A stretch of 57,435 bases of DNA from Candidatus Omnitrophota bacterium (GCA_016928555.1 JAFGKM010000015.1:1-57435), one strand, 5' to 3'; shown: positions 30,956 to 50,400, counted from the first letter of the stretch. Made by a program: numbers and translations. Notes: generated by a model from the letters alone, not told the origin.

Positions 30956-32902
30956 CTATACTTTTTCCCTTTCTGCGGTTATAACTGCCTTCATGACGTT
31001 TACCCCTTCAATGTCAAAAAGAAATTCATTGCCGTTAATCTTCTCAAAACAGCGTATACAGTAAGAACCTGTTTCTTTTGTTGTTTTCGTCAGCATTTTA
31101 TATTCCCCGTTTTTGATATCAAGAACAAAAAGGCCGTTTTCCGTGGCGCCGTAAAATTCGCGTTCGTTCATGAAAAGCCCGTCGATGAATATGCCTTTCA
31201 GCGGCCACGGCTTTATTTCAAAACTTCCGGTCTCAACGTCCCACAGGAAAAACTCTTCCCCTTCCATTCCCGGAGGATTTTTCAGTCCCATGCACACCCC
31301 CGAAGGAGTAATGTCGGTTATACTGAGACGTGATATTTTCCACGGGGACCATTGATAAACCGTTTTTCTCTGTTGCGTGTCCCACAGGAAAAGCACTGCC
31401 TCTGATGCCCTGGGTTCTGCAGTGTCGCAATCGCCGCTTATGTCGGTTCCGCCGGCAAGAAGGTTTTTATCCGGCCGGAGGAAGAGGCCCGAAGGGTTCT
31501 GTTCCGGCACAAAATTTCTGTAAACCGTCATTTGCCGGGTTGCAGGGTTCAATGCCGTTATCGCTCCTCCCAGCATTCCGTATTGAGCGCCGGTGGCGAT
31601 ATAAACAAATTTTCCGTCGTTTACCATGTCAATAGGACGGTTCTGTCCCTCCCCGATTTCCCCGATGACGGACGGATTTTTGCCGAAGGCAAACGGCTGT
31701 TTCCAGTCGTACTCGGATATAACCGCATGAACATATGAGCCCATGTAAAACTTCCCGTTCATGGCCGTTCCGCAGTTTACCTGTCCCCCATACGAAACCA
31801 CTTTGTTCAGTGACGGCTCGCAGTCTTTGTTTTTCAGGTTTATCCTGAACATCTGCGAACATATAAAATGGGCGCCTATGACAAAGTCATCATCCGGCAC
31901 TTTATAAAGAAATTGAAGGCCCATGCCTTTTTGGGAAACGTTGTCAATCTGCCGGGAGACCATTGTTCCTTCATTCAGGTTAAGTTTCATCGCAAGGCCG
32001 TTGTCTCCCATGCATGCGAATTCTCTGTTCCCAAGATAGTGAAAATTGTTCACAAGGTTGCCGTCAGGAAATTTCCCCCATACTTTTACCGCTTTACCCT
32101 CTCTTATACGGTACATGCAGCCGGAGGGAAAACCGCTGCAGTAATAATCTGCGTCCGCCTTTTCTATTTTGTAGCAATATTCCGATATATCAGAAAAAGT
32201 CCCTTCGTACGCAAGTTTTTTCCAGTTAAAAACCCTCACACCGCCGTAATATTTAAAATTAACAAGTAGCCGTTCCTCATCAATAGCTCCGTCAAAGAAG
32301 CCCCTTGACTCATTTTCGGGATTGCCCCGGTATACAATCTTTTGCTCCCCTGTGCCGGGGTCAAAAATTATTATGGCCGGCCGGACGCCCGATACAAGAA
32401 TCAGCATGCGCCCGTCAGGAAGGTCTATGAAATCCGAGCAGTAAAGCCCCTTTTTAATGCCGGGTATTGTTTCATATCTCTTTACATTTCCCGAGGACGT
32501 GTCATATTCCCAGAAATTACCGTCAGGCCACCTTCCCACATAAATCTTGCCCGAACGGGAGAAATGGCTTCCGCAGATGAAGCTTCTATCCATTAAACTG
32601 ATTAGTTTTCTGAATTTTTTTTGTTCCAGTTGAAATTCATAGAGGCATCCGTTGGTTGAGGCAATATAGAAAGTATTTCCTCTCCCCTTTTGAAACCCGT
32701 GGTGTCCGCAATTGGCTCCGTCAGGGAGGGAATGCTTTTCTTCATTAAGCGTCCGGGTGTCAATGAGATATAATGCTGCATCTTTTCCAATGGCTGAAAA
32801 AGATACCCCTGCCATTAGGTTCTTTTCCGGCAGATACTGGGTAAAATTATTCAGAATCGGAAGACGCATCTTTGGCGTTGCAATTTTTTCTGTTTTTATC
32901 AT
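30956..32902 (-). CDS. Cytoplasmic beta-propeller-like protein, function unknown
   Basis: 648 residues with no signal peptide. It consists of repeated 40-50-residue beta-rich units, e.g. FYIASTNGCLYEFQLEQKKFRKLI, KIYVGRWPDGNFWEYDTSSGN, GTGEQKIVYRG and FVYIATGAQYGMLGGAITALNP. This is the pattern of seven- or eight-bladed propellers. ATG at 32902 follows AAGGAGA. It is the last gene of the thirteen-gene minus-strand run. No catalytic signature was recognised; it may bind or sense a glycan-related ligand, which is only inferred from its neighbours. Confidence 0.7.
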   Translation of the reverse strand: MIKTEKIATPKMRLPILNNFTQYLPEKNLMAGVSFSAIGKDAALYLIDTRTLNEEKHSLPDGANCGHHGFQKGRGNTFYIASTNGCLYEFQLEQKKFRKLISLMDRSFICGSHFSRSGKIYVGRWPDGNFWEYDTSSGNVKRYETIPGIKKGLYCSDFIDLPDGRMLILVSGVRPAIIIFDPGTGEQKIVYRGNPENESRGFFDGAIDEERLLVNFKYYGGVRVFNWKKLAYEGTFSDISEYCYKIEKADADYYCSGFPSGCMYRIREGKAVKVWGKFPDGNLVNNFHYLGNREFACMGDNGLAMKLNLNEGTMVSRQIDNVSQKGMGLQFLYKVPDDDFVIGAHFICSQMFRINLKNKDCEPSLNKVVSYGGQVNCGTAMNGKFYMGSYVHAVISEYDWKQPFAFGKNPSVIGEIGEGQNRPIDMVNDGKFVYIATGAQYGMLGGAITALNPATRQMTVYRNFVPEQNPSGLFLRPDKNLLAGGTDISGDCDTAEPRASEAVLFLWDTQQRKTVYQWSPWKISRLSITDITPSGVCMGLKNPPGMEGEEFFLWDVETGSFEIKPWPLKGIFIDGLFMNEREFYGATENGLFVLDIKNGEYKMLTKTTKETGSYCIRCFEKINGNEFLFDIEGVNVMKAVITAEREKV

Positions 32903-32943
32903 TTTGTTTTTTCTCCTTATCTTATCCTGCTTTGCAATCACTC

Positions 32944-34014
32944 TTAAAATCTTAAATTTCTGATGCGGTCCAGATAATATTTGTAATTCTCCAGTGATGT
33001 CCCCGGTGTTATCAGATGGTCGGGGAGGATGACAAAACCTCCTTCCTTCATCAGTGGTAATCTCCGTTCTATTTCATCATCTATTGCCTTGCGTCCTTTT
33101 TCCAGAACAAGCTTGTTGAATCCTCCGAATATCCTCAATTCTTTGCCGTATGTTCTCCTTAAAAGCATGGGGTTGGCATTCCATGTGCCTATCTCTATGG
33201 GAAACTGCAGGTTAACTCCCGCGTCGAGCCATGGCTTTATCAGCGGTTCCACCTTGCCGTCGCTGTCCAGCCCGAGGAGTTTCACTCCGCATTCTTCCAG
33301 CTTGTTTCTTATCTTGATATACCCTGGAGCCACGCATTTCTTAAAAATGGACGGGCTGACGAAAGGGCCGGTACTTCCGGCGATATCTTCCCACCCCATT
33401 CCGAAATCCGGCTTTGTTTTCATCTTCGGTATGACCTGGTTTATCCCCCAGCATACGAGGTTTGAAATAGTATCCACCATATCTGAAAAAACATCCTGGT
33501 CGTCATACATCAGGTATGCCATATTCTCAACGCCCATCCAATTCCTTATCCAGCCCATCATGGAGCCGGTGCCTATGCATATCGGCAGCCCGGAGTTTTC
33601 CGCTTTCTCTATGTGCTGTTCAATATCCGGAGGTATTCGCCCGGGGTTAGGCTGGAGCCTTTTCTTGTATATATCCCAATCTCTGGCTGTCTTAAGCGTA
33701 AAATCTATATAATGCGGGATATTGCTCTTTTTCAGCCATGCTTTCTGTACCACGCCGTCAACTGCCCTGAATATCTTGTATTCTTCAGTCTCTTCTATCA
33801 CTTCTTCTTCAAATAACGGAAAAAGTCCGACAGGGACTCCTACGGCTGACCATATATAGGGGGCGTTGAAATATTCGTTTTCGTCCGCATCTTCAGGCAT
33901 GCCCTCGCTTATCCACCTGTCCCTTGTTTCCGGCCAGCCCTTCCAGTGCATGACGGGCATCCTGTCATACTCCCGGTAAAACATGATGTTTTGCCACAAT
34001 TCGCGAGTAGTCAT
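32944..34014 (-). CDS. UroD-family protein (methyltransferase-like), paralogue 1
   Basis: 356 residues with the uroporphyrinogen-decarboxylase fold, seen as alternating segments such as PDFGMGWEDIAGSTGPFVSP and KLLGLDSDGKVEPLI. In place of the HxC zinc motif of MtaA/MtbA there is LDSDG. True UroD motifs for the porphyrin arginines were not found, so heme synthesis is unlikely. AAGGAGA precedes the ATG. Proteins of this class are often linked to corrinoid methyl transfer or to glycan loci in anaerobes. Confidence 0.82.
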   Translation of the reverse strand: MTTRELWQNIMFYREYDRMPVMHWKGWPETRDRWISEGMPEDADENEYFNAPYIWSAVGVPVGLFPLFEEEVIEETEEYKIFRAVDGVVQKAWLKKSNIPHYIDFTLKTARDWDIYKKRLQPNPGRIPPDIEQHIEKAENSGLPICIGTGSMMGWIRNWMGVENMAYLMYDDQDVFSDMVDTISNLVCWGINQVIPKMKTKPDFGMGWEDIAGSTGPFVSPSIFKKCVAPGYIKIRNKLEECGVKLLGLDSDGKVEPLIKPWLDAGVNLQFPIEIGTWNANPMLLRRTYGKELRIFGGFNKLVLEKGRKAIDDEIERRLPLMKEGGFVILPDHLITPGTSLENYKYYLDRIRNLRF

Positions 34015-34047
34015 TATGCGGGTCTCCTTTTCTTCTATGCAGAATTA

Positions 34048-35451
34048 TTATTGCGCTTCTGTTATTATTGCGCCTTTCTTTTCCGCTCTTTTCAAAGCCT
34101 GTTTCTGCGAGGCGTCCAGCATCTCTGCCATGGGAACATAAATCTCTTCAAATCTGCTGATATCTTCAGGCCATCTGTTGTCAAAAAGAACCTCAAAGGG
34201 GATGTTCTTCTCCCATAAATCACCGCATATGTTGATAAACCGCTTGTAATATTCATCGTTGCCCGGGCCAAGGCGGTTGCGGATTTTAGAAGAAAAAACC
34301 ACAGCTTTTTCCCCGTCAGGCCACCGGGGATTTTGGGCCTGCGGATACCCGTCTTTGAGTATCTCCTCCTCGGAGATTTCAATCTCATCGCGGACCATGC
34401 GGCATACCCACGGACGGGCGCCTACGCGGTTTATCATTTTCAACCAGGGAACAAAATCTTCCGGTTTCCTTCCGTAGCAAATTACAATACATTCCTTACC
34501 TTGCAGTTTTGCCAGAGAACGTGCTGCACATAATTCGGACACGACCCGGTTTTTATCCTTTAAAGGGTCGCATCCGTGGTAAATTTCCACGAATACAGCA
34601 TCGGAATAATCTATCTTGTGTTCATAAGAGTTGCCCTGGACACAGACATGAGGCATAAGATTTACACACTGGCACGACCAGAGCAGAATGTTTTCCGGGA
34701 GAACTTTTCTCAAATTTTCGTAGAATCCGCCCACCCATCTGAACCGCGCCTCAATCCATGACTGGAAGTCAGGATTATCAAGGTTCTCCCAGAATGTCTT
34801 ATCGGAAATATCAGGTATGTCCAAACCTGTTTCCTTTTTGAATCTCGCCCGGCAATGCCGACATGTGCATGAGTAAAAATCCGGGAGGAATGCCGCGTCA
34901 TCCGCCATCAGGGCGTCGATGCCGGTATTTTCAACAAGCTCTGCTGTATATTCACAGTAACTTTTCAGAAAATCAGGGTTATTGGGACAGAAAAGTTCCA
35001 TCCGGTAACCTTCGTAGTATATGGGCTTGTTATCTTTTGCCGAGACCATTCTCCAGTCCTTCATCACACGACCTCTGTAAATCTGCTGTTCCCACGAATC
35101 AGGGAACAATGGGAGATGATGGTTTTGCCACCGGTTGATTATCTGCCTGTCATCCATATTTCGCGCCCGGTGGACAAAAACCGCGCTGTGATGGTCGGCA
35201 ACTTTGATGCCGTGTCTGTGACAGATAGCAGCAGTCTCTTTTAATATTCCCTCGACCCGTTTGAAGTACGGCAGAAAATCCCATCGGGGATGAAAGCCAA
35301 AAATGATTACCGCGTTAACCCCTGCCCTTGCAAGGATTTCTGCCCTTTTTTCCCACTTCTCCGTTATTGAAGGAAGAGGCCAGCGCAGGTCTTCCCACGT
35401 CAGCCACCAGGAAGCAAATCTGGCTTCCGATAGCCATGTTTTTTTATCCAT
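34048..35451 (-). CDS. Probable TIM-barrel glycosidase-like protein
   Basis: 467 residues, not assigned to a numbered family. Segments such as RAEILARAGVNAVIIFGF, CHRHGIKVADHHSAV and TGIDALMADDAAFLPDFYSC resemble the barrel of glycoside hydrolases. A CTCRHCRARF motif (Cys-x-Cys-x2-Cys) follows, often seen in barrel proteins of this kind. No signal peptide. ATG at 35451 follows GTGGAG. It sits between two UroD paralogues. Confidence 0.7.
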   Translation of the reverse strand: MDKKTWLSEARFASWWLTWEDLRWPLPSITEKWEKRAEILARAGVNAVIIFGFHPRWDFLPYFKRVEGILKETAAICHRHGIKVADHHSAVFVHRARNMDDRQIINRWQNHHLPLFPDSWEQQIYRGRVMKDWRMVSAKDNKPIYYEGYRMELFCPNNPDFLKSYCEYTAELVENTGIDALMADDAAFLPDFYSCTCRHCRARFKKETGLDIPDISDKTFWENLDNPDFQSWIEARFRWVGGFYENLRKVLPENILLWSCQCVNLMPHVCVQGNSYEHKIDYSDAVFVEIYHGCDPLKDKNRVVSELCAARSLAKLQGKECIVICYGRKPEDFVPWLKMINRVGARPWVCRMVRDEIEISEEEILKDGYPQAQNPRWPDGEKAVVFSSKIRNRLGPGNDEYYKRFINICGDLWEKNIPFEVLFDNRWPEDISRFEEIYVPMAEMLDASQKQALKRAEKKGAIITEAQ

Positions 35452-35474
35452 ATAAACTCCACTGTCGTTAATAT

Positions 35475-36533
35475 TCAATCGAACCAGTATGTGCGAAATT
35501 CTTCAAATGCCGAGCATACCGCCTCTATGTTTTCAGGGGGCGTCGGCGGGTAAATGTCTGCCAGCATCTCCAGTCCGCCCTGAGGAGAGCCAAGCCGCAT
35601 GAATTCCTCCTTTATTAATTCTCTTATCTCGTTGGGTTTTCCGAAAGGCACTATCTTCTGGCGGTCAACATCAAGGCGGATTGTAATGCGTCCCTTAAGT
35701 TCGCGTTCAATGTTATCAAGACCGTTGCAGAGGTCCTGGAGGTTCAACACGCTGACGCCTGCGTCAATCAGCATGTCAACCAGTTCCATAATGTATCCGT
35801 CGCTGTGCATGGATACATATGTGTTCTGTTTGCGGCAAAAGCCGAACATCCGGCGGTAATGCGGCAGTATCCATTTTTCAAACATTGCAGGACGGATGAT
35901 GGAAGCCGTCTGGCTTCCGAGGTCTTCTCCGAACCACATAACGTCAAGCCCGTATAAAAGCTGTTTTTTTATGGATGTGATGTTGTGCTGAAGGACAATA
36001 GTAATAAGCCGATGCAGTTCCGGCCTTTCTTCAAGCATGTCAAACATGAGGTTTTCAAAACCACGAAGGTACTGCAAACGCATAAAGAAAAAGCCGTGGG
36101 GGAGGCCGCCGGCAACAACCTGGTTATTATGTCTTTGTTTCGTAAAAGCCTTTTCCCTTTCCTTCCAGTTTGCCGGACCTCTGTCTGCCTGCACGAGAGG
36201 GTCGGGGGCGCTGTACGAGTCAAGCTCTTTCCAGTCATTTATGGGATGACCTGTTACCACTCCTTCAATGCCGGTTACAGCAGTTTCCCATGTGCATCCC
36301 CATGCATCTGTAAAAGGCTTTCCTGTTCCATGGCCGGGAAAATAAGTTAAGTTGTCGTAATCAATAGTTCCTTTTTTATAGCGGGGGAATAATGATGGAT
36401 GCCGAAGGACAACTTCTTCAAGGTCGTCTCTGAGGTAGTCCCATGCCGCCGGGGAAAGCGCTACATGGCAGGGTGTCCATTCCGAACCGCTCATTGCAAC
36501 ATTCCGAATAAAATTCTCTTTTTCTGTAAGCAT
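35475..36533 (-). CDS. UroD-family protein, paralogue 2
   Basis: 352 residues of UroD fold (LRGFENLMFDMLEERPELHRLI, GLDVMWFGEDLGSQTASIIRP, YVSMHSDGYIMELVDMLID). MHSDG stands where MtaA-like enzymes have HxC. AAGAAGG lies ahead of the ATG at 36533. Same operon as paralogues 1 and 3. Confidence 0.82.
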   Translation of the reverse strand: MLTEKENFIRNVAMSGSEWTPCHVALSPAAWDYLRDDLEEVVLRHPSLFPRYKKGTIDYDNLTYFPGHGTGKPFTDAWGCTWETAVTGIEGVVTGHPINDWKELDSYSAPDPLVQADRGPANWKEREKAFTKQRHNNQVVAGGLPHGFFFMRLQYLRGFENLMFDMLEERPELHRLITIVLQHNITSIKKQLLYGLDVMWFGEDLGSQTASIIRPAMFEKWILPHYRRMFGFCRKQNTYVSMHSDGYIMELVDMLIDAGVSVLNLQDLCNGLDNIERELKGRITIRLDVDRQKIVPFGKPNEIRELIKEEFMRLGSPQGGLEMLADIYPPTPPENIEAVCSAFEEFRTYWFD

Positions 36534-36543
36534 ACAAACCTTC

Positions 36544-37608
36544 TTATCGGCAGTATTCCTCAAGTTCTTTCATGAAACGTTCAGCTTCCTTTTTGGAGGT
36601 TATGGTGGTTTCTCCAAAAATAAGTTTGCGGGATTTATATTCCCTCCATAATTGTTTTATCCGCTCCGAGCTTTCTGCCAGAATTTGTCCCTTGCCCAGA
36701 TTGTCAATCTTCTTATACAGGCCGGACCAGTTTTGTTCCATGGGATTGCCGGCGCCCTGTACCCATTGGATTACGTCTATCCTCTTAATTTTGCAGATTT
36801 CCTCAATATGTTTTACGGCGCCCGGACCGTCGAGGTGATACTCCGCGGCATCAAGGATTGCACACTGTCGTTCCATGCAGGGGACTACGAATTCCCTGAA
36901 CATCTCCGGGCTTATCATGCAGGAGGTATCGCACTGGACTACGTCTATCCGCCCCTCGCAGTACAGACCGTGGCGGTTTATGCTGCCGAACTCTTCAAAC
37001 CCGAGCTCTACGGCCAGCGCTTCCATTATTTCGGCATAAGCAATGCATACCTGGTCAAGTGCACGGTGAATCTTTTCAGGGCAAAGAACCATATCCATGA
37101 GGAGATTGTTTGCTCCGCGGACGGCCGCCAGTGCGTCTATGTTGGCGCATAATGTAGGGGCGGCAATAAGGAGTTTGCCGTCGCATCTTTTTCTGAGCGC
37201 TCTCGCAAAGGCAACTGTCCGCTTCCACCAGAAACTTTCCCGCCTGAAAGCAATTTCAGTTTCGTCCCAGTCTTTGACAAAAGGCTGGCACCAGCTCGTG
37301 CCCGGATTTTCGGGGTCAAATTTAAGGTCTGCTCCCAGGAGGGCGGAAAAATGGTCCGGTCCGAATTCAAGGTAATAAAAGGGGATTGCCTCGCCTATGA
37401 ACTCGTGTGTTGCCGCCCATGCCAGAAGCCGGTCAATCACCGGTTCAAAGTTACCGTCTGCTCCGGAAGTATAAGGCGGTCTCTTCACGGGGGTCACCCC
37501 TTCCCTGGGCATACTCATGCATACAATAGGGCGATTGTTCTCCCCTTTCCAGAATGCGCGCCACTGCTTCTGTACTTCTTCGAAATCCGGCTTGAATTCC
37601 AGTTTCAT
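36544..37608 (-). CDS. UroD-family protein, paralogue 3
   Basis: 354 residues; a divergent member with GADLKFDPENPGTSWCQPF, CDTSCMISPEMFREFVVP and EYHLDGPGAVKHIEEI. The candidate metal site reads YHLDG. Its start overlaps the GH31 stop (ATGA), so translation is coupled. It differs from the other two enough that a separate substrate or partner is likely. Confidence 0.8.
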   Translation of the reverse strand: MKLEFKPDFEEVQKQWRAFWKGENNRPIVCMSMPREGVTPVKRPPYTSGADGNFEPVIDRLLAWAATHEFIGEAIPFYYLEFGPDHFSALLGADLKFDPENPGTSWCQPFVKDWDETEIAFRRESFWWKRTVAFARALRKRCDGKLLIAAPTLCANIDALAAVRGANNLLMDMVLCPEKIHRALDQVCIAYAEIMEALAVELGFEEFGSINRHGLYCEGRIDVVQCDTSCMISPEMFREFVVPCMERQCAILDAAEYHLDGPGAVKHIEEICKIKRIDVIQWVQGAGNPMEQNWSGLYKKIDNLGKGQILAESSERIKQLWREYKSRKLIFGETTITSKKEAERFMKELEEYCR

Positions 37609-39704
37609 GGTTTAAACTCTTCAAGATAATTGGCATACATAGTTCTTATTTTCTTGATTATGGGAGACAGAACGGCTGATTTTGGCCGTGCGGTAACAAA
37701 TACAGGGATAACTTCTTTCGGGGCAGGGAACCCTTTCATCTTTTTCGGCCCGATGCGGCTCTTGCCGTCAAATAATCCTGTCCATCTGCCCGGAGGAAGT
37801 ATTATACTCCGTTCAGCCGCATCATCCAGCATCGGAGCAACCAAAATGTCTTCTCCAAGGAAATACTGGTCTTCGCAATCCTGTAAACACCGGTCATCAG
37901 GATAGTGAAGAAAAAAAGGCCGCATTAGCGGCATCCCCGTGGCGCCTGAAATACGGGCCTGTTCCAGCAGATATGGCATCAATGCATAACGAATCATGGA
38001 ATAAAACCTGTAGATGCCGACTGTTTCAGGCGGGAAATCATAAGGTCTGGTAACCGTTCCGTGCGTCTGCATGGCAGCAGAGAAGCAACTTAACTGAACG
38101 CCCCGCACAAAAACGCCGGCTTCGTCGTCACTGTTTTTTGCCGGCTGATAACCGGCCAGGTCGTGTCCCATGAAAGGTATGCCTGAAATTCCGGAACTGA
38201 GAATAGCTGACAGTATTGTTTTAAGAGAACTGAACTCCCTGAGTTGGTCTCCGCACCATACGAAAGGATATCTGTGAGTGCCTATACCGCCTCCCCTGCT
38301 CCAGCAGAGGCCGCCTTCAGGAGCGTATCTTTGAAAAAGGTCGGACATCATGATATTGTACGCTACCGGATAGAAGTGGTGCATCCCCTTCAATGTCCGA
38401 CCAGAAAAAAGCACAATATTGTCATCTTCCGGAAACTGCTCGCAGAAATCTATTTTTGCCCCGGAGATGCCGGTTTTCATGAGGCGCCTCCACACCTTAT
38501 CCTTCCACCATTCAACAGCTTCGGGATTTGTGATATCAATGAATGAGCTTCTCCTCCTGTAGGGGGCATCCTGCGGATTATGGTGGGGTGCCTCGGCAAT
38601 TGTACGGTTGCCCTGTTTATCCCGGACAAAAAATGAAGGCATTGATTTCTGCGTCTTCCAATATTTTTCCGGGAGCCTTCCGCAGGCATCGTAGACCATT
38701 GTTTTTTTGCCGTCTCTAAGGAGTTCCCGGACTATCCTGTCCAGTTCCTTATAGGTATCCGGATTATAGGTATCCCATCCCTCTATTATTGCCCCGCTCC
38801 ATGGAAGCCCGTGTTCCTTCATTTTTGAAGCCATTTCCCTTATGCCGGCAGTCGTGCTGAGTTCTTCCGTGGCAAGATGGCGGGATACCAGTATCCCAAA
38901 ACCCCATTCCGGAGGGATACGCGCAGGGCCCCAGAGAAGCATCAGTTTCTTATAGACCTCCCTCGGGTTGTCAAACAGGAGGATATAAATATCCAGCGAC
39001 GCATTCTTCTGGGTTATGGTTAAATGCCTGCTGCTGGTTTTGCCGAGGTCAAAGGTAGAAGCCTCAAAACGGTTTGCCAGAACAGCATATTTCCTTGTGC
39101 TGATTATGAAAGGTATGGGAAGGTAACTGTTTCCTTCGGTTTGAAGATATCTATCCTCGGCCCAGACAAGGATCTTCTTTCCTCTCTGATTTACCCCGTT
39201 AAACCTCTCGCCCGTTCCGTATATCCTTTCATCATGCTTAAGCGTACATTTCACTTCATTGCCGGATGCTCCGGAAAGTTCTCTTATTTCAAAACAGGTG
39301 CGTTTATCCCTGCTGAAAACCATGCGGAAAGGAGAAGAATATATTTTTGCCTGTGTCTTGGAATCTTGAGCCGTTATCAACGAAAATTTGCATTTTTCCT
39401 TGATGCTGAGGGTGGCTGGTGAAATTGCATCTGCGGCTTTTTCTTCGGAAAGCTTCTCAAGCATTTGGACTGCACCTTCATCTTGGAATGGGTCATTCCC
39501 GGGAGCACTCTGAAGCCGCCATACATTTTCCATTGGTGCGGTCAGTTTGAGTCTTATCCCGCTTCTTACAGAGTCTGCGGCGCTGACCTCAACAAAGTTT
39601 TTCCCCTTCTTTATATCTGCACTCTCCAGCCGTACGGCATGTTCACTTTCCCCGTGTCTGCAGGTTTCCGCGTGACCGGACTTTTCCTTTTTGATTGTTT
39701 TCAT
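37605..39704 (-). CDS. Glycoside hydrolase family 31 (alpha-glucosidase/xylosidase-like)
   Basis: 699 residues. The beta-sandwich N-domain is followed by the barrel with GISGAKIDFCEQFPEDD, which contains the nucleophile Asp, and FVWCGDQLREFSS for the acid/base region. ISGIPFMGHDLAGY and MPLMRPFFLHYPDD are family hallmarks. No signal peptide is visible, so it probably acts inside the cell on imported oligosaccharides. The start at 39704 has a poor ribosome site and follows the upstream stop by seven bases, so reinitiation is likely. Exact specificity is unknown. Confidence 0.9.
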   Translation of the reverse strand: MKTIKKEKSGHAETCRHGESEHAVRLESADIKKGKNFVEVSAADSVRSGIRLKLTAPMENVWRLQSAPGNDPFQDEGAVQMLEKLSEEKAADAISPATLSIKEKCKFSLITAQDSKTQAKIYSSPFRMVFSRDKRTCFEIRELSGASGNEVKCTLKHDERIYGTGERFNGVNQRGKKILVWAEDRYLQTEGNSYLPIPFIISTRKYAVLANRFEASTFDLGKTSSRHLTITQKNASLDIYILLFDNPREVYKKLMLLWGPARIPPEWGFGILVSRHLATEELSTTAGIREMASKMKEHGLPWSGAIIEGWDTYNPDTYKELDRIVRELLRDGKKTMVYDACGRLPEKYWKTQKSMPSFFVRDKQGNRTIAEAPHHNPQDAPYRRRSSFIDITNPEAVEWWKDKVWRRLMKTGISGAKIDFCEQFPEDDNIVLFSGRTLKGMHHFYPVAYNIMMSDLFQRYAPEGGLCWSRGGGIGTHRYPFVWCGDQLREFSSLKTILSAILSSGISGIPFMGHDLAGYQPAKNSDDEAGVFVRGVQLSCFSAAMQTHGTVTRPYDFPPETVGIYRFYSMIRYALMPYLLEQARISGATGMPLMRPFFLHYPDDRCLQDCEDQYFLGEDILVAPMLDDAAERSIILPPGRWTGLFDGKSRIGPKKMKGFPAPKEVIPVFVTARPKSAVLSPIIKKIRTMYANYLEEFKP

Positions 39705-39711
39705 GGGAATG

Positions 39712-42700
39712 TTAAAAAGAAACAACGGAATTGAGGTACCCGGCAACGAAAGCCGCCTGAAGTCCTGCTGTTTTCTCGTTAGGATGAACGGCGTCAATGA
39801 AGATATCTTCGCCCAGATTTGCCGTGAAGGCATATAAGTCCAAAACAGGAATATCCAGCTCCTTCATCACCTTGTCCGCGATACCGTTGTAAAGAACCAC
39901 GTCTGAATCATAACGTGATGTTTTCAATTCATCGGGTATGCCGGCCCTTTCTTTCACCGGCGTTGTGCGCACCCATATCAGTGATGCCCCCATGTCTTTG
40001 ACGATGGAGTATATTTCACGGAGATTTTTTTCATAATCCTCCGGGGAAACCTGGTATGTTTTGGAGATTGCATCTCTCTTTATATCATGCAGGCCGCAGT
40101 TGAGAAGAACATAGTCGGGTTTGTAAATATTTTTTTCTTTAACGGCACGGAGGTATTTCAGCACCATGGAGCTGTCTCCGCCGTTTGTTCCGTCAGTCCC
40201 GTCAACGATATCCGTGAATTTGTGTTTTCCTCCCTTCCTGTCATACTCCCACATATCTTTCAGCATTCCTTCCAGATGGCGTCCGTAGTAACATGATATG
40301 CTGTCGCCTATGACAAACACCGATTTCTTGTTCAATGTTGCCTCCTTTTTTTCTTCGGTTCCGTTTAGTTTTTCAAGTTCCATATCGTCAAACCACAGCG
40401 TTCCTTCTCCGCCTCCGGCAGACAGCGTCAGACAGAGACGGACAGCGCCGGTAGGAACTACTGTCGTAACGGATGTTTTGTTCCAATCCCGGGTGCCCGG
40501 TAAAACTTCCGAACGTTCCGCCTGCTTCGGAGTTACTGACGTATTTCTTTCGTCCCTGAAAGAAATGTCAATCTTAGGGCGTATCTTCTCTCCTTCCGCC
40601 TTCACCCATACTGTAAACGTATACTTTTCTCCCGTGGCCACTCTCGGCAAACGTGAACCGTTGGGAGCGAAGCGGTGTGTGGTCCAATAAGGCCCTTCTA
40701 CTAATGTAGCTGGTTGGATAACCCTGAGAGAGTATGTTCCGCTGCGAGTTACATCATAATCTTTGGCAAGGGATTCTTTTTCAGGGGAGACGTAGTTGCC
40801 CCAGTGATAGGGCTCCCAGTAGCCCAGTTTTTCAATGGACGGGTTGGAAGGCCTTTGCGTTTCCATTATCGCAACGGTTGTATGTGAAATCGCTGCAGGC
40901 ACGGTAAATTGCTCCCATGACGACCATTGCCCGTATTGTCCTGTCAGGACGTTTTTCGGCCTGACCCGCCATCCATAGGATTTTCCCGGGGACAGAAGTA
41001 CATCCGGCTGATACAGATTGGCGGGAACATCCTTTTTGCTGAAAACTTCCTTCTTTGAGGAACTTTCCATGCATTCAACGTCGTAGGCGGCAAGCGAACC
41101 CGCATTGTCCCTCCACCTTAAGACGGGGCGGAGCGATGCCGGCTTAATCTCGCGGCTCGGTGAAACAGGTTTAGGGGATGACGGTGAAAAAATCCCGGAT
41201 TTGCATAGATAGAGAACCTTTACGCTGTAAGGTGCTGCATAAACGGATATTTCGGCGGGGTTTTTAATAACCTTCTTGCTCCAGTAATCAACGGCTGTCA
41301 TATCCGCAGGTACCTGGATGTTTCTGACAACAATCGTTTTTCCCTTCTCCTCCTCGTTGAAAACGAAAATCAGCCTCTCCCCGCCGCAGGTAAGAACCGA
41401 CACCTCGGGCAGGAGAGTGCCTGATTCAGATACCGCCAGGCTGTCCTCTCTCCTGAAAGAAAGGAAGAACTTTTCAAAATCCTCTGCTACGGCGGCTGCG
41501 CGCGATGCCGCCATACATACGCGCCCGTCCAGCATGTCAAAAAAAACCATGTATGCACCCATGTCCGTCAGGCGCCTGAAGATATTTGTTTCGGCGGCTT
41601 CAAACTGGTAATCTTTGCCCGACACGAATTCTCCGCCATACATCCTCTTTTCCATCCCAACGGCTTTGCGCGTGCGCTCGTAATCGCCCCTTCCATATCC
41701 GCATCCGGCAACATCAACGTATTTTCCGAAGTATCTCCAGTCTACCCCGTAATGTTCAGTATTATCTCTCTGGTATCCGCTGTAACTGCTGAAGATGCAG
41801 TCAGGGTTTGCTTTCTTTATTGCGCCGCGGTACAGACTGAGAATTTCGCCGTTCTGCCAGCACCGGAAGTCTATCCATTCTTCACGGTAGTCCTTCAGTA
41901 TTTTTTCAGGCGTCAGCGCAACATTCTCAGGGATCTTTTTTTCACTGCGGAACATCTCTATGTTTCTTTCCGAGTAGCCCGGAGCAGAAGGGTCAAGGAT
42001 TCCGAACTCATAATCAATCGTCAGGTCGTCATAAACCTTCGCCATTTTTGCAAACAGGGTAGATGCTTCCTTTATGAAGGATGATATCCCGTACATCAGT
42101 CCGGGAAGGGCGACTGCGTTTACGGTCTTCCCGGAGATTGTTTTCTCGGCTTCTTCGGGATGAGAGGCGAGGTATTCCGCCGCTCCCGGGAAACCGGTTG
42201 TTGCGCTCAGTATGGGCAGCATTTTCTCTAACTTAAAACCGTATTCTTTAAAAAGTCTGCGGTAATTAGGGGTGTTTATCGACAGAGCCGTATGCATCGT
42301 GTTGAATCCGGAATCCCGCCATTTGGCCAGCAGTATGTGTTGTTCGGCTTCGCTCAACTGGGAGAGTTCAAAATGCGGCCACCATGCCCATAGAATGGTA
42401 AGTATCTCCGAAGGCTTTTTCCCGAGCAGGGGAGGCAGTATTCTGACAGGCAGGCTCTGCTCTTCTTCTTCAAAAAACGGCTGTTGTATGGATGCCTGGT
42501 AGTATATGAAGTCGTTCCCATTTGCGTGCCCGGCTCCAACAACTTTAAACATAAGGGGAACAGGCAGTATGTCCCACTCGGGGTCATCCGCCAGCGATAC
42601 GGCGTTTCTATCAAAAATGAAATTATACCGGCGGTATTTCTGTGCTTCCCTGACAGTCTCCTCTTCGGAAAAGGATATGGGGCTGATACAGTTTCTCTGA

Positions 42701-44451
42701 TATCCGGGGTTTATCAGAGAAAGATAGTGCGGTACCTCCATGGTGAAGCTGACCCGGGATAATTCATTCTCCTTCAGAGAGCTTTTCAGGGTGAGGGTGA
42801 CTTTTTCCGCTGTTTCCTCCGCGGCGTACAGGCCGGTAAGAGGCAGAAGCGAAGAAGAATTGGGTTGTAAATGGGATAATCGGCTGGAAACAGGCAACAC
42901 CTCGGCTTTTGTCATGAAACGCAGGCGGGGAGAGGCATACAGGGTGGTTCCCCCGGCCATGATGGAATATCTTATTTCGGGAGAGACTTCTTTTGCCGCC
43001 TTGCTGATATCTCCCGATACGGATATGGTTTCTCTTGCGCCCGCCGCCACGGTTTTTGCGAAATTTTCCGTCATTTCAGTGCCGTCGGGGTATTTGATTG
43101 TCAAAGGGAATTCCGCGTTGATATTAACGCCGGTGTTGTTGAAAAACTGAATCTCGGTTTTGGCGATGCCTGACGATGAAAACGACAAGGAAGACTGGGT
43201 TATTCCCGTGGTTTCTTTGACAAACATCAGGTAGCCGAAACTTTCAGGGCTGTGAAATCCGGTAACAGGAACAGGCGCCCAACTGCTGTATTCCTGGACA
43301 GGCTGGCGCGAACGCGCAAGGTTCACCCTCCATATCCGGCCTTCGGCAGGCGCTGAGACTCCCAGCGCTGAAAAAGGGATACTAAGCTCAATTGTCCATT
43401 TATACTTGCCCTCATGATAAACTTTTGCCGCGGCTTTAACAGGCGCATTCCATCCTGAAGGGTTTTCTTTCCCGATTGCATCATATACGGTGCCCAGGCT
43501 GTTTGCCGCAATATGATAATACTGGTTGCTTTCCTCCGGTTGAAGGAAAACTTCCACTATGTCTTCAAAAAAAATGCGGGAATCGCGTATCTTTGATTCC
43601 GCCTTGAATCTCTCCATCTGATTGAGTTTCGGGTCAAGGTACGGCTCCTCGCAGGAGAAGGCGATATAGAAACTTTCGTTGTTGTATGTCACTATTGAGT
43701 GCGTTGAGGCGGCGGCAGGCCCTTTCTCTCCCATGAGCTGAAAGCTTGAGCATTCAATGCTGTTTTCCCAGCATGCGTCGTTCAGGTTCCCGTCAATAAC
43801 CGGCGGACTGGCAGCGGCCGGCGCACAAAAAAAAGGTATCGCGGACGTATTTCCGGATACAGGAGCTTTCTCCGGAGTGAAGAATGCATCGTCAAGGTAC
43901 ACCGTGCCCGCGTCTTTCAGCTGAAAATCTATCCGTATGTGGGCCGTATTTTCCGGGACGTCAACGTCTAGAGAAAAAGACTGCCAGCTTTCCGTCTCCT
44001 TGAGGTTGAATCTTTGTCTTGTCGGCGAGGGACTTGCAACCGGTTTCCAATCCGAATCGGTAAATCCGACAGAGATTTCAAATACAGAGTTGGCCTCCTT
44101 TCCTTCAAGCCGCACGTTGATACCTGCGGTATATTTCCCCGACGCCGGTACAGCGATCGGCCTTGGCGTATTGCACCATACCCCCACGTGCCCTTTTTTC
44201 CTGACGGTAATCTTGAGTGCTGCAGAGTTATTCTTTCCGGCATCCGGAACCCATAACTCTTCGGTGTCCGGTTTTTCCCCGCCGGGCGCCCATGACCAAT
44301 TTCCCCATCCAAACGGTTTTCCGTCCTTCACCTCTTCAAAACCGGAATTGACGGCATAGTTTTTGGTTTCGGCCGATACTGTAAAACAGGAAGAGGCAGT
44401 AAAGAGAGTTGCAAGAAGAACAGAGACAAAAAACACTCTTTTTCCCAACAT
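39712..44451 (-). CDS. Giant secreted multidomain carbohydrate-active protein with SGNH hydrolase domain
   Basis: 1579 residues. A signal peptide ends near residue 27 (VSA/ET). Domains in order: a CBM4/9-like jelly roll (about 30-200), a CBM9-like domain (from SPPVIDGNLNDACW, about 215-410), beta-rich linkers, a barrel-like region from LTILWAWWPHFE, a fibronectin-III-like domain, a second CBM4/9-like domain and a C-terminal SGNH domain (about 1376-1579). The SGNH residues are visible: GDSIS, GTNGGDSS, LNCGLHD and DAVHPN. The last domain probably removes acetyl or other ester groups while the rest binds and cuts the glycan. AAGGAG precedes the ATG at 44451. Confidence 0.85.
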   Translation of the reverse strand: MLGKRVFFVSVLLATLFTASSCFTVSAETKNYAVNSGFEEVKDGKPFGWGNWSWAPGGEKPDTEELWVPDAGKNNSAALKITVRKKGHVGVWCNTPRPIAVPASGKYTAGINVRLEGKEANSVFEISVGFTDSDWKPVASPSPTRQRFNLKETESWQSFSLDVDVPENTAHIRIDFQLKDAGTVYLDDAFFTPEKAPVSGNTSAIPFFCAPAAASPPVIDGNLNDACWENSIECSSFQLMGEKGPAAASTHSIVTYNNESFYIAFSCEEPYLDPKLNQMERFKAESKIRDSRIFFEDIVEVFLQPEESNQYYHIAANSLGTVYDAIGKENPSGWNAPVKAAAKVYHEGKYKWTIELSIPFSALGVSAPAEGRIWRVNLARSRQPVQEYSSWAPVPVTGFHSPESFGYLMFVKETTGITQSSLSFSSSGIAKTEIQFFNNTGVNINAEFPLTIKYPDGTEMTENFAKTVAAGARETISVSGDISKAAKEVSPEIRYSIMAGGTTLYASPRLRFMTKAEVLPVSSRLSHLQPNSSSLLPLTGLYAAEETAEKVTLTLKSSLKENELSRVSFTMEVPHYLSLINPGYQRNCISPISFSEEETVREAQKYRRYNFIFDRNAVSLADDPEWDILPVPLMFKVVGAGHANGNDFIYYQASIQQPFFEEEEQSLPVRILPPLLGKKPSEILTILWAWWPHFELSQLSEAEQHILLAKWRDSGFNTMHTALSINTPNYRRLFKEYGFKLEKMLPILSATTGFPGAAEYLASHPEEAEKTISGKTVNAVALPGLMYGISSFIKEASTLFAKMAKVYDDLTIDYEFGILDPSAPGYSERNIEMFRSEKKIPENVALTPEKILKDYREEWIDFRCWQNGEILSLYRGAIKKANPDCIFSSYSGYQRDNTEHYGVDWRYFGKYVDVAGCGYGRGDYERTRKAVGMEKRMYGGEFVSGKDYQFEAAETNIFRRLTDMGAYMVFFDMLDGRVCMAASRAAAVAEDFEKFFLSFRREDSLAVSESGTLLPEVSVLTCGGERLIFVFNEEEKGKTIVVRNIQVPADMTAVDYWSKKVIKNPAEISVYAAPYSVKVLYLCKSGIFSPSSPKPVSPSREIKPASLRPVLRWRDNAGSLAAYDVECMESSSKKEVFSKKDVPANLYQPDVLLSPGKSYGWRVRPKNVLTGQYGQWSSWEQFTVPAAISHTTVAIMETQRPSNPSIEKLGYWEPYHWGNYVSPEKESLAKDYDVTRSGTYSLRVIQPATLVEGPYWTTHRFAPNGSRLPRVATGEKYTFTVWVKAEGEKIRPKIDISFRDERNTSVTPKQAERSEVLPGTRDWNKTSVTTVVPTGAVRLCLTLSAGGGEGTLWFDDMELEKLNGTEEKKEATLNKKSVFVIGDSISCYYGRHLEGMLKDMWEYDRKGGKHKFTDIVDGTDGTNGGDSSMVLKYLRAVKEKNIYKPDYVLLNCGLHDIKRDAISKTYQVSPEDYEKNLREIYSIVKDMGASLIWVRTTPVKERAGIPDELKTSRYDSDVVLYNGIADKVMKELDIPVLDLYAFTANLGEDIFIDAVHPNEKTAGLQAAFVAGYLNSVVSF

Positions 44452-44495
44452 TGATGAGCTCCTTTTAATAATAATCATATTCCATGGTTATTCTT

Positions 44496-46235
44496 TTAAT
44501 CTTTTTCCGCCCGCAAAAACGGGATGATGATGTAATCGCCCCTTTTTGCGAGGTGCGGATTGACGCGTATCCCCCCCGTCCACTCCCGCGCCATATAATA
44601 AAGTTTTATGTCAAAGGTCTGTTTCTTCCCGGCCCCCAGCATTTTTTTCAGGTTATATGCACGGTATCCGGCAGTTCCTACTTCCGAAGTCTCTATCGGT
44701 ATTGTCCGTCCCGTCTCTTTGTGTATTGCCTTTACAAATACAGTTGCGGGAGAACCGGTTTTTATAACGTCCCACGAAAGATAAGGGAAACTGTCCAGTT
44801 CTATCGTTACGTTGCGTACAATAATATGCGCCCAGTTATTCTCCGCGTTAACCCATGTGCCCCGGGCGTTGCGCATGACCAGTATGCCTCCGGGTACTTC
44901 GGCCAGCGCGTAATAGCAGGAATTTTTCTGGGTGGTGCCGTCCATATAGTCTTCAAGGTCCCATTTGCAGCATGACGGCGCAAGTTCCATATATTCTTCG
45001 CGTCCCGTCTTCTGCCTGTGGCCTTGGAAAGAAAGTTGTCCGGTTTTTTCCGCCGTCTTCCGTTTTGCCGCCCAGTCTTTTTTTGCGTGTGCGAGCGCGG
45101 CGCGCGACTCCGCTGGAGAAAAACCGTCTGTTACGTTCGGAGTGTTCAATTTAGGCCTTTTAAAAACAGATGGAATATTATTTGAAAACTCGCCGAAATT
45201 TGCCTCGAAGCGAAAGCTCAGCATGCCGGGCTTTGCTATGAAATAACTTTCAGGGGAAATTTGTTCAGATACCATTACCGGCGGCACTCCCGTAAGCGTA
45301 CAGCCGTGGATATCTATCAGGTTGGGGATTTCCTCGCAGTATACCGCGCACCGGCGTTTGGCATTGCCGAGCGCGCATACGGCGCATCCGTCAAGGATAA
45401 TATACGGCTCGCGGGAACCGCAGATCTGCGGAACGTGCCTGGCGAAATTCACTACCGGAGTGAATCCGGCTTCCTCTCCACCAAACCGCACGCTTCGGCA
45501 GGCCAGCGCTCCGTGGTTGTCTATCCAGCGCTGGTCGCGGCCGTTTACCATCGGCACACAGCACAGGTTGCTCACCGTCATCTCGCCGTTTGCGCTGTTG
45601 ACAAGCATCGCTCCGTCTCCGCTGCAGCCGCCGGTCAGCCATCCTTCCCGGATGTGGTTAAAGTCCGCCGAGGTTACCACTCCCTGTTCGCATCCAACTA
45701 TCTGGCACCTTAGAACCATAAGCATGGTTGAATAGCTGTGGTCGCGCACATGGATAGCCGTCGCCGCACTTTCGTAAAACTTGCAGTCCTCTATGAGCAG
45801 AAGGCCGTTGTCCTCATTGTTATTGCCGATATTCAGGTGTGTGCGTCCGCCGTGGAACGACAGGCACCGGAATGTCTGGCGGATGGAATTATCGCCGTAA
45901 ATTATATCCTGCTTTTTATTTTTCTGCTCTATCCACGGGTGTCCCTCTCCCCGCAGGGCAAGGGTTTTGCGCGTCAGCAGATGTGCGGTGATTGTATAGT
46001 GCCCGTGCGGGAAAAACACTTCTGGTCCGGTGGAGTGGCAGTGGTATCCAGCCCTTGAAGGTATGCCGTTCGGGTAGGAAATCTTCTCGGTATCCTGCCG
46101 CGTCATTACTGCTTCGGAAGCGGCATCAAGAGCGGCCTGGATAGCGAGTGTGTCGTCGCTCCGGCCGTCACCTTTAGCCCCGAAATACCGCACGTTCAGA
46201 CTGCCCGTATACGTCATTGATTTTTTATTTTTCAT
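44496..46235 (-). CDS. Pectate-lyase-superfamily beta-helix protein
   Basis: 579 residues. The start NVRYFGAKGDGRSDDTLAIQAALDAA is the signature of the pectate lyase 3-type right-handed beta-helix. Successive strands follow (RCLSFHGGRTHLNIGNNNED, VRDHSYSTMLMVLRCQIVGCEQG). No signal peptide is seen, unusual for such an enzyme. It overlaps the next gene upstream by four bases. It may be a lyase or hydrolase on polysaccharide; the catalytic residues could not be pinpointed. Confidence 0.8.
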   Translation of the reverse strand: MKNKKSMTYTGSLNVRYFGAKGDGRSDDTLAIQAALDAASEAVMTRQDTEKISYPNGIPSRAGYHCHSTGPEVFFPHGHYTITAHLLTRKTLALRGEGHPWIEQKNKKQDIIYGDNSIRQTFRCLSFHGGRTHLNIGNNNEDNGLLLIEDCKFYESAATAIHVRDHSYSTMLMVLRCQIVGCEQGVVTSADFNHIREGWLTGGCSGDGAMLVNSANGEMTVSNLCCVPMVNGRDQRWIDNHGALACRSVRFGGEEAGFTPVVNFARHVPQICGSREPYIILDGCAVCALGNAKRRCAVYCEEIPNLIDIHGCTLTGVPPVMVSEQISPESYFIAKPGMLSFRFEANFGEFSNNIPSVFKRPKLNTPNVTDGFSPAESRAALAHAKKDWAAKRKTAEKTGQLSFQGHRQKTGREEYMELAPSCCKWDLEDYMDGTTQKNSCYYALAEVPGGILVMRNARGTWVNAENNWAHIIVRNVTIELDSFPYLSWDVIKTGSPATVFVKAIHKETGRTIPIETSEVGTAGYRAYNLKKMLGAGKKQTFDIKLYYMAREWTGGIRVNPHLAKRGDYIIIPFLRAEKD

Positions 46236-47427: not shown

Positions 47428-50400
47428 TTAACGCAGAAGTCTGGCTTCTCCCCACCAGGCATATGCGGATATCTTTCCAGCAGGGTCTTCTATGACAAGT
47501 TTCAATTCTTTTGCACTGGAGATGTTCACTACAACCGGCAGTACCGGCTGGCCGATACTGTAAACAGCGCTTTTGAATTTCTCCTTTCCATCAACGAAGA
47601 CCTTGAAGATAACCGCCTCTTCCGGTCGGGGAGCGCCCAGCCCTGCAGCAGATGCGAATGTTTTGTATCCCTGCGGAATAGAGTATGTTATCTCCGAGGG
47701 CGCCTCCGCGTACAGCGAGTTTCCGTAAGATCTGCCGTCACCGTCAATGCTTGTCATCAGGATGACCGAACCGTTAAGATTGCCCCATATTGCACCCGGA
47801 GGCATCCATCCGATGACAGGTGGTTTTGCCGGTTCCATTTCCGACAGGTACAGTATATCCTGCTGCAAGGCGCTCTTCACGGACGGAGGATATTGTACCT
47901 CCCATGGCGGAATTGCCGATACTCTTTTCTGTTCAACCTGCTCTTTCTGTTCTCCCATGACCTTCATTTCAACAACCATTGCTCCCTTTGACAGGGATTC
48001 GTACGTTACCGTCAATCGCACGTAGCGGGCGGGATGGGGTTCAAACCAGCGCTCCAGCGGCCAGCCAACACTGTGTTTCATGCTCTTGCGTTCGTCGAAG
48101 ACCGTCTCCCATGCCGTCCCGTCTAAAGATGTTTCCACGTAGAACTGGACATATCTCGGCGTTGTGTATTTTGCCAGCAGTTCGCGGTTTGTCGTATGAG
48201 TGAACAAAACCTCCACGTGGCTGATAATCCGTTTCTCCTGCAGGTCAACGGTCGCGCTCTGGGGCAGTGCGTGCTCGCGCCCCCTAACTATTTCAGATGA
48301 CCACCACCCGTTGCTGCGTTCCGTCTTCCCGTCAACGAGATGCTTCCCTTCGTGCCCCTTCACTTCGGATGTGGTTGTTACAGGGCGGTTCAGCGCATAG
48401 TTCACATAGCATTCAACGGGCTTAAGGACAATCTTCTCCGGCTGAAGTTCAATAACCTTCATCTCCCCGGAAGCGATATGCGTATCTATCACAGCATGAC
48501 TATTTTCCATTGTATATGGAACATCCTTGTTTTCAAACCATTCCAGTGCGTCCGCCACAGGGAATTTACAGACCAGCCGTACGGGGATTTTTGCGGGAGG
48601 CGAGATTGCATCCACGGCCGCAGTGCCGTATTTTACAATTTCAACAGGGTCTCTGTCATATGAATAGTTTATCAGCGTAACCAGCCACCCGTTTCCCTTT
48701 TTTGAAACGGTATATTTAAGCGAACTCCGTGATTTTTCGGGTATAATAACGTCAACAGGCAGAAGCCCTGCGGTGAGGTGTCCCATGAAATCCCCTGTAA
48801 AGTTCAGCAGTTGTTTGCTTGACCAGTTTCTTCCGGGCATCTTCTTCCCCTCTTTTGCAATCATGTACTCTGCGCCGATGACAAAGACCATGCCTTTGCC
48901 GTATTTATTACGGCTGACGACTGCCCGGTCTTTCGCGGTCACAACGGCATCCGCTCCCTTGCGCAGTTTCATCGCACGGCAGGTGAAAAGAGGCTCCCCG
49001 GTCTTCTTGCCGCATACGGTGCAGACGGTTTCATCCGCATCAAATGTTATGGGGAGCAAATCTACTCCGAGGAAATCCGCAGAAAAATGGTTTTCGGCAT
49101 CAAGGGCATTAACTACCAGCACACCTCCGTTGCTGACATACTTTTCAAGTTTGCCGGCAAGGTCCTGGTTGATATTCAGGCCTCCGAGCGCAAATAAAAT
49201 CCTGTAGTTTTCAAGGGCTTTCGGATCTACCCCCTTCCCTGGGACGTTGGGCTTAATCTGGTCAAATATGTCGCCGAACGGAGTGGTGCAGAAATAACTG
49301 TACATGGGACCTTCCGGCGTTTCCGGGAAAAGCAGGTTGTATATCCCGAGGTTCATGTGGTCGCAGTCCTCAAACGGCAGATAGGTTCCATAGGTGGTTC
49401 CCATGAAGCCGCTGGGAGCGGTACGTTCCCAGTCATGCATAAGGGCAACGGGAGCATAGGTTATCCCCCGCTCCGGATGGCGCTGTACGAAATCAACAAA
49501 TTCTGTGAAAAGATGCCCCAGCGGAGACCGCTCGCAATGGCCGTCTTTTTCAACATCCAGCATCAATGAGCCCGGGAACGCTTCGTTGAGCTGGTAGTCA
49601 ACCCCGGAAAGGTAAGGTTCATAAAGAAATATGCGTCCGTGGGAATGAGGATATCCCTGCTGTTCCATGAAACGGGAATGCTGGAAATGGGAAGAAAAAA
49701 GACTCATGGGTTCGTGCGCCTGATAAACTGCCAGGAACTTATTGCCCCCGAACTGGCGCATGGCGCCGCGGCAGCGGGCAAATGCAAGGGGATTCTGCGA
49801 CTTGGTTCCTACCGCCCGGTTGCCTTGGAGCGATGCGAGGTAGTAAAAACCCAGTTCACCCATGGCCCACGGCATGGCGTTTTCAACGCCTATCTCACTG
49901 AAAATTACGTCCTGCTGTATCTTTGAAAGCTTGTAATATTCGGAATATGTCCACTTGTGGTTCTTTTCCCTGAAGAAGGGCAGTTCTTTCTCCAGTAAAG
50001 GCATGGCATTTTTTCTTGTGTATTCAATGCGGTAGGGGTCATTAAGCCATGTTGTCTTCTCTCCCCTGACAGCCGGAAGAAGGAAATCAAAACGGTAGTT
50101 ATATTCCGTGTGTCCATCCCCGAGCCAGAGCTCTCCGGCGGCTTTTTTTGCCTCCTCGGTAACTGGCCTTGCATTTTCCCGGGCCGCATGGCCTTCATTG
50201 GTTATAAAAGGCCAGCGGTTTTTGAGGAAAAGGTCTATGAGGCGCTGCTGGTCGGCGGTTTTCTGCAGGGACGGGTCGAAGACGGAAATGGAAAATCCGC
50301 CGGGGAGCAGAATTCTTTCGAGGCCGAGCGATTGCATGTTTTTATAGGTGTCGCCGGAATAAGCCCATGATGCCTGCGATGCAATATAAAAATCTTGTTC

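Follow-up and report, generated by a model that had tools for sequence, protein, structure and literature searches.

Three diverged UroD-family genes in a glycan operon of a Candidatus Omnitrophota bacterium: candidate corrinoid-dependent demethylases of methylated sugars

Results

Three UroD-family genes and their membership of the superfamily

The window analysed here is the whole of a 57,435-nucleotide contig from a Candidatus Omnitrophota bacterium, and it carries three diverged genes of the uroporphyrinogen decarboxylase (UroD) family whose possible role in corrinoid-dependent methyl transfer is the subject of this work. The genome to which it belongs (contigs prefixed G000) is a metagenome-assembled genome (MAG) of 1.95 Mb in 94 contigs, 94% complete. 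All positions are counted from the first letter of the window, and the operon genes lie on the minus strand. The initial annotation had placed three UroD-family genes at 32944-37608, and all three open reading frames (ORFs) were found there on the strand it gave. They are named A, B and C as follows.

32944..34014, minus strand: UroD-family gene A, 356 amino acids (aa), of a DxDG clade (Pfam, AlphaFold model, orthologues)
35475..36563, minus strand: UroD-family gene B, 362 aa as called (Pfam; profile match to MtaA 4ay7)
36544..37608, minus strand: UroD-family gene C, 354 aa, of a divergent subfamily (fold match to MtaA; Pfam score below cut-off)

A and B scored above the cut-off of the Pfam URO-D family, with E values of 1.4e-6 and 8.9e-16, respectively. 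The AlphaFold model of A (pLDDT 94.9) matched HemE and MtaA about equally in Foldseek (probability 1.00), and its top sequence-profile matches were HemE proteins. Orthologues of A with 62-70% identity were present in 8 genomes. B was placed by sequence profile and is the nearest of the three to MtaA: its best match in the Protein Data Bank (PDB) was MtaA 4ay7 (3.6e-13), and CdmB (5.9e-7) and HemE were matched too. Its start was called at a TTG; translation may instead begin at an ATG 10 codons downstream. C fell under the curated URO-D cut-off (E 3.1e-4), and searching its sequence against the PDB gave nothing meaningful. Its AlphaFold model (pLDDT 88.7), however, had MtaA 4ay7 as its best PDB match in Foldseek (E 9.6e-9, probability 1.00), followed by human and other UroDs, and on the basis of this fold match we assigned C to the UroD/MtaA fold despite the low Pfam score.

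Conserved site residues differ from the MtaA zinc set

The motifs of A, B and C were scored in family-wise alignments, since a mixed alignment misplaced the C motif. The A and B alignments comprised 37 and 27 rows, respectively, with homologues from the phylum, and that of C comprised 14 rows.

33385..33390, minus strand: E209-D210 of A, after barrel strand 204-208 (alignment and model)
33256..33267, minus strand: D250-S-D252-G253 of A, at the end of strand 247-250 (alignment and model)
33193..33195, minus strand: E274 of A, after strand 269-273 (alignment and model)
33016..33021, minus strand: D332-H333 of A, C-terminal region (alignment; profile alignment to HemE 4wsh)
35796..35807, minus strand: H253-S-D255-G256 of B, aligned with the MtaA H-x-C (profile and family alignment)
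36826..36837, minus strand: H258-L-D260-G261 of C, invariant in the 14 rows

Residues D203, D210, E274, D332 and H333 were invariant in all rows of the A family, and E209 and the DxDG motif (D250-x-D252-G) were each kept in 36 of the 37. Judged from strand ends only, the conserved residues in the model of A lie where the active site of a TIM barrel is found: at or just past the C-terminal ends of three strands (204-208, 247-250 and 269-273) and beside residue 331. By profile alignment to HemE 4wsh, D332-H333 falls in the C-terminal region that holds the third zinc ligand of MtaA and a histidine of HemE. In the B family D214, H253 and G256 were invariant, and D255 was found in 25 of the 27 rows, the other two having Cys (HxC). 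The C family kept Y216, E218, D227, C230, D253, H258, D260, G261 and P262 in every row. The motifs LDSDG, MHSDG and YHLDG pointed out in the initial annotation are thus borne out as DxDG in 36/37 A rows and HxDG in 25/27 B and 14/14 C rows. Judged by these alignments, the altered motifs are fixed in their families rather than decayed, and the A clade has a fixed site of its own, made up of ED, DxDG, E and DH.

The zinc ligands of MtaA are an H-x-C and a later Cys, and zinc held by HxC...C in MtaA-type enzymes activates a thiol acceptor. The HxC motif was correctly reported as missing, being DxD in A and HxD in B and C, and no third Cys at the MtaA position was seen in the A, B and C alignments, C being poorly aligned there. 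Against the NCBIfam MtaA-type model B scored 42.5 bits, where the cut-off is 400, and A and C gave no match. With the zinc set missing and the NCBIfam scores under cut-off, membership of the MtaA/CmuA type was rejected; the missing HxC argues against an MtaA role for all three proteins. The further suggestion that its absence may signal new chemistry does not follow, because published UroD-superfamily enzymes of the methyltransferase I (MT I) type work without zinc: CdmB has none and none was seen for the Moorella O-demethylase, while some O-demethylases do contain zinc (PMC13222342, PMC8630106).

The whole genome contained 41 URO-D matches (2 within one gene), a C-type paralogue on contig C38 and 2 further candidates from a custom profile. 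Among 41 aligned members, about 16 carry HxDG (counting C), 13 HxCG, 7 DxDG and 5 other motifs. The 7 DxDG proteins, A included, form one supported clade (100/99), whereas B pairs with C35:1284-2294 (100/100) and C with its paralogue on contig C38 (100/100; 68% identity). Since the three fall in separate clades, local tandem duplication was ruled out as their origin. A scan of genome contigs for the C family returned 77 loci in many phyla. Only C65:22590-23621 has both HxC and the later Cys among the aligned members, and for this reason it may be the one thiol-type enzyme of the genome.

Operon layout and glycan context

The genes GH31, C, B, the 476-aa gene, A and a propeller-like gene follow one another in a tight run downstream of a LacI gene, all on the minus strand. 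By the gene calls, C overlaps B by 20 bp, and the overlap is 4 bp both between GH31 and C and between B and the 476-aa gene; 33 bp separate the 476-aa gene from A, and 2 bp separate A from the propeller-like gene.

30956..32941, minus strand: 661-aa protein, propeller-like by eye, 2 bp past A; no Pfam match
34048..35478, minus strand: 476-aa protein between A and B, resembling a TIM-barrel glycosidase by eye; no match in Pfam or PDB searches
37605..39833, minus strand: GH31 glycosidase (Pfam)
39712..44478, minus strand: GDSL/CBM9 protein of 1588 aa, farther upstream in this run (profile match)
44496..46235, minus strand: pectate-lyase-fold protein of the rhamnogalacturonase A/epimerase type (Pfam)
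47428..50574, minus strand: 1048-aa NPCBM and F5/8-type C protein (Pfam)
52402..53418, minus strand: LacI-family regulator, head of the run (profile match)

A CBM4 protein is also encoded upstream of A, B and C on the same strand. The GH31, pectate-lyase-fold, GDSL/CBM9, NPCBM and CBM4 proteins, together with the LacI regulator, agree with the earlier description of a sugar locus. The top NCBIfam model for the GH31 protein was alpha-xylosidase, with a score far under the cut-off of that model, and in the PDB alpha-glucosidase 5f7c came first and YicI next.

Elsewhere in the genome, the neighbours of UroD genes include GH1, GH42 and GH67 N-domain proteins, sulfatases, an alpha-L-fucosidase, an FGGY sugar kinase and Gfo/Idh/MocA oxidoreductases, but an ABC transporter and others as well. 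GH31 adjoins relatives of C at two loci (L229, L268), and some orthologues of A lie near GH42-like/CBM4, GDSL or GH35 proteins or a ROK kinase. The operon as such was not found to be conserved, and this idea was dropped: A orthologues of 62-70% identity occur without the 476-aa gene, B, C and GH31 alongside.

GH67 enzymes free 4-O-methylglucuronate from xylan. On contig C23 (L100:6806-10387) a UroD gene whose motif is HCHG precedes a gene for a GH67 N-terminal-domain protein, and in view of this role of GH67 the pair suits a first test of sugar demethylation.

Corrinoid partners in the genome and the phylum

The initial annotation called for a search for corrinoid proteins and RamA-like activators, and both kinds of partner were found. 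The genome encodes a single free corrinoid protein, an MtvC-like protein of 214 aa on contig C56, whose nearest solved relatives are 1y80, the trimethylamine (TMA) corrinoid protein and 4jgi; 1y80 and 4jgi are structures from Moorella and Desulfitobacterium, both of them O-demethylating. The genome also encodes two full-length RACo activators, each made up of Fer2, middle and ASKHA domains. A methyltetrahydrofolate (methyl-THF):corrinoid methyltransferase of 271 aa on contig C24 matched 4o0q (1e-54) and AcsE (5.6e-47); 4O1E and 4O1F, sister entries of 4o0q, were used to place folate in a published model of methyltransferase II (MT II) (PMC13222342). A 120-aa orphan C-terminal piece of RACo directly follows 2 UroD genes on contig C62 (L080:6167-9171), as if a whole RACo gene had been lost there.

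Across 35 genomes of the phylum, 16 of them of good quality, the number of UroDs per genome ranged from 2 to 41. A corrinoid protein was found in 29 of the 35, in effect always as one copy (G018 gave two partial matches), and RACo in 33. All 16 good-quality genomes have RACo and 15 have the corrinoid protein, the exception carrying 2 UroD matches.

Relatives of A and C adjoin corrinoid genes

A DxDG relative of A lies directly upstream of a corrinoid gene, on the same strand, in three genomes (G032, G028 and G030). The full DxDG...DH set is present in the first two, and in G030 the copy is split between two ORFs. For C, relatives are immediate neighbours of corrinoid genes at two Clostridia loci (L225, L227) and lie near such genes at five others (L226, L243, L254, L256, where RACo is also present, and L259). 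L225:562-7142, from an Oscillospiraceae MAG, holds a run of 4 UroD genes and 2 corrinoid-domain genes, one of 526 aa. B-like UroDs near the corrinoid gene in four genomes (G001, G009, G017, G019) were not counted as functional linkage, because they stand by a housekeeping run that ends in argG.

The corrinoid link proposed in the initial annotation was staked on a corrinoid partner in the genome and a metal site in structures. Partner proteins are present, and relatives of A and C adjoin corrinoid genes elsewhere, so that the corrinoid link is supported and not refuted; on the structural side, the modelled folds of A and C resemble those of UroD/MtaA proteins.

Discussion

From the UroD fold, the conserved site residues, the complete set of partner proteins and the corrinoid adjacency of relatives, all of which were observed by computation, we lean towards the reading that A, B and C are MT I enzymes that demethylate O-methyl sugars onto one shared corrinoid protein. 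We infer their use of the C56 protein from co-occurrence and from the adjacency in relatives, and an O-methyl sugar as substrate is plausible from the genomic context. GH31 and the other glycosidases of the operon would release O-methylated sugars or oligosaccharides, and each UroD-fold enzyme would hold one such substrate in its TIM barrel. Activation of the ether oxygen would fall to the carboxylate/His set, perhaps aided by a metal, and Co(I) of the genome's only free corrinoid protein would accept the methyl group. RACo proteins would re-reduce Co(II), and the AcsE-like MT II of contig C24 would move the methyl group to tetrahydrofolate.

Several observations weigh against this reading. 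There is no corrinoid gene in the A/B/C operon, and none was found beside any UroD of the genome. Most genomes of the phylum have their corrinoid gene among housekeeping genes, in a conserved run (plsY-like, gpsA, purN, argG) where a catabolic shuttle protein would hardly be expected. Housekeeping genes, not glycosidases, are also the neighbours of several A orthologues. Furthermore, methylene-THF reductase (MTHFR, PF02219) was not found in this genome, whereas a search of 14 control genomes found it in 11. Because a MetH-type B12 domain was likewise not detected in the genome apart from the free corrinoid protein, methyl-THF may be used to make methionine rather than be oxidized, as far as a 94% complete MAG allows. 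The corrinoid gene of this genome lies in a run with plsY-like, gpsA, formyltransferase, GNAT and argG genes (L077:4777-10828, contig C56), as at L184-L202.

More tentatively, and with clearly less confidence than for the three proteins themselves, the phylum may operate a network with one hub, in which dozens of UroD-fold methyltransferases, many of them in sugar operons, share one corrinoid protein for anaerobic O-demethylation of plant or algal glycans, with a distinct A-clade site (ED, DxDG, E, DH) and the methyl group perhaps going to methionine.

UroD-type corrinoid MT I systems are already known. MtvB, OdmB, VdmB, MtoB and CdmB move a methyl group from a methoxyaromatic or haloalkane to corrinoid Co(I) (PMC13222342, PMC8630106). 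Like these three-component O-demethylases and dehalogenases, the present system has the UroD fold and, in its genome, a corrinoid protein, a RACo-type activator and a methyl-THF-type MT II; as in CdmB, which lacks zinc, the MtaA zinc set would not be needed. Sequence likeness to a known MT I is remote, being confined to the CdmB match in the profile of B. In contrast to those enzymes, whose operons include their own corrinoid protein, A, B and C lie in a glycan operon without one, and a single corrinoid protein would here serve more than 40 enzymes. What would be new is the glycan setting, the one-carrier-to-many-enzymes layout across the phylum and the fixed A-clade site.

The characterized enzymes of this type in PMC13222342 and PMC8630106 all act on methoxyaromatics or haloalkanes, and A orthologues are not always beside glycosidases. 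Both facts would suit corrinoid MT I enzymes for non-sugar methyl groups (aromatic aglycones, lignin-carbohydrate esters or betaines), the sugar genes only freeing an aglycone. We consider this unlikely, as three distinct members share one glycan operon, others lie by GH1, GH42, GH67-N and sugar kinase genes, and no aromatic-catabolism gene was seen within the operon.

A somewhat more doubtful alternative is that the three proteins work without a corrinoid, as metal-dependent sugar lyases, epimerases or decarboxylases on a recruited barrel. It would fit that the operon contains no corrinoid gene, that the site of A consists wholly of carboxylates and His, unlike the MtaA zinc site, and that UroDs far outnumber corrinoid proteins in the genome. 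However, corrinoid genes are found next to relatives of both A (DxDG type) and C, the genome encodes a corrinoid protein as well as RACo and MT II, and every UroD-rich genome of good quality has the corrinoid protein.

The UroD fold is also common to MtaA/MtbA-type coenzyme M methyltransferases and MtaA-like proteins (Mlps, PMC10418091), and MtaA is the best PDB match of B and the best fold match of C. A role as MtaA-type MT II, in which a thiol (coenzyme M or homocysteine, for example) would accept the methyl group from the corrinoid, is nevertheless very improbable, given that the H-x-C...C set is missing in A and B and unseen in C, that the scores are far under the family cut-off (42 bits for B against 400), and that a separate AcsE-like MT II is encoded in the genome. 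That the three are true HemE decarboxylases of tetrapyrrole synthesis is by far the least likely reading: A shares their fold, a His at the matching C-terminal position and its best profile matches with HemE, but the three copies are remote from HemE in sequence, strongly diverged and set in a sugar operon, the genome has more than 40 family members, no score reached HemE level, and tree and motifs differ.

Hemicellulose, pectin and algal glycans commonly contain methylated sugars. A search for corrinoid-dependent sugar demethylation found no report in the collection of papers searched. The 6-O-methylgalactose demethylase of porphyran degraders, an oxygen-dependent P450 system that yields formaldehyde (PMC10033563), does the same job of taking a methyl ether off a polysaccharide-derived sugar; the proposed route differs in being anaerobic and in keeping the methyl group on corrinoid and folate. 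If correct, it would explain how the breakdown of methylated glycans is completed without oxygen, and the many proteins annotated as uroporphyrinogen decarboxylase could be assayed using a single corrinoid protein and a set of methyl sugars.

Other genes of the window

The initial annotation had listed a nearby MttB together with the three UroD genes.

56369..57409, minus strand: MttB-family gene, lacking its 5' part because the contig stops there (MTTB profile positions 217-496 of 500)

We place it outside the operon, because it lies 18.8 kb from the UroD genes with a convergent gene in between; it is also cut by the contig end at 57435. The true TMA enzyme MttB carries pyrrolysine, encoded by an in-frame TAG. 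The open frame here runs for 354 aa with no internal stop, and the gene, as far as its partial sequence goes, probably encodes a non-pyrrolysine member of the MttB superfamily. A full-length MttB-family gene of 491 aa lies between genes for a Gfo/Idh/MocA-type protein and an amidohydrolase on contig C17 (L081:720-4359). Elsewhere in the window, a gene at 23985-26003 on the plus strand, for a TPP enzyme of the pyruvate/2-oxoacid:ferredoxin oxidoreductase beta type, contains an intein splicing domain with a weak match to a LAGLIDADG endonuclease.

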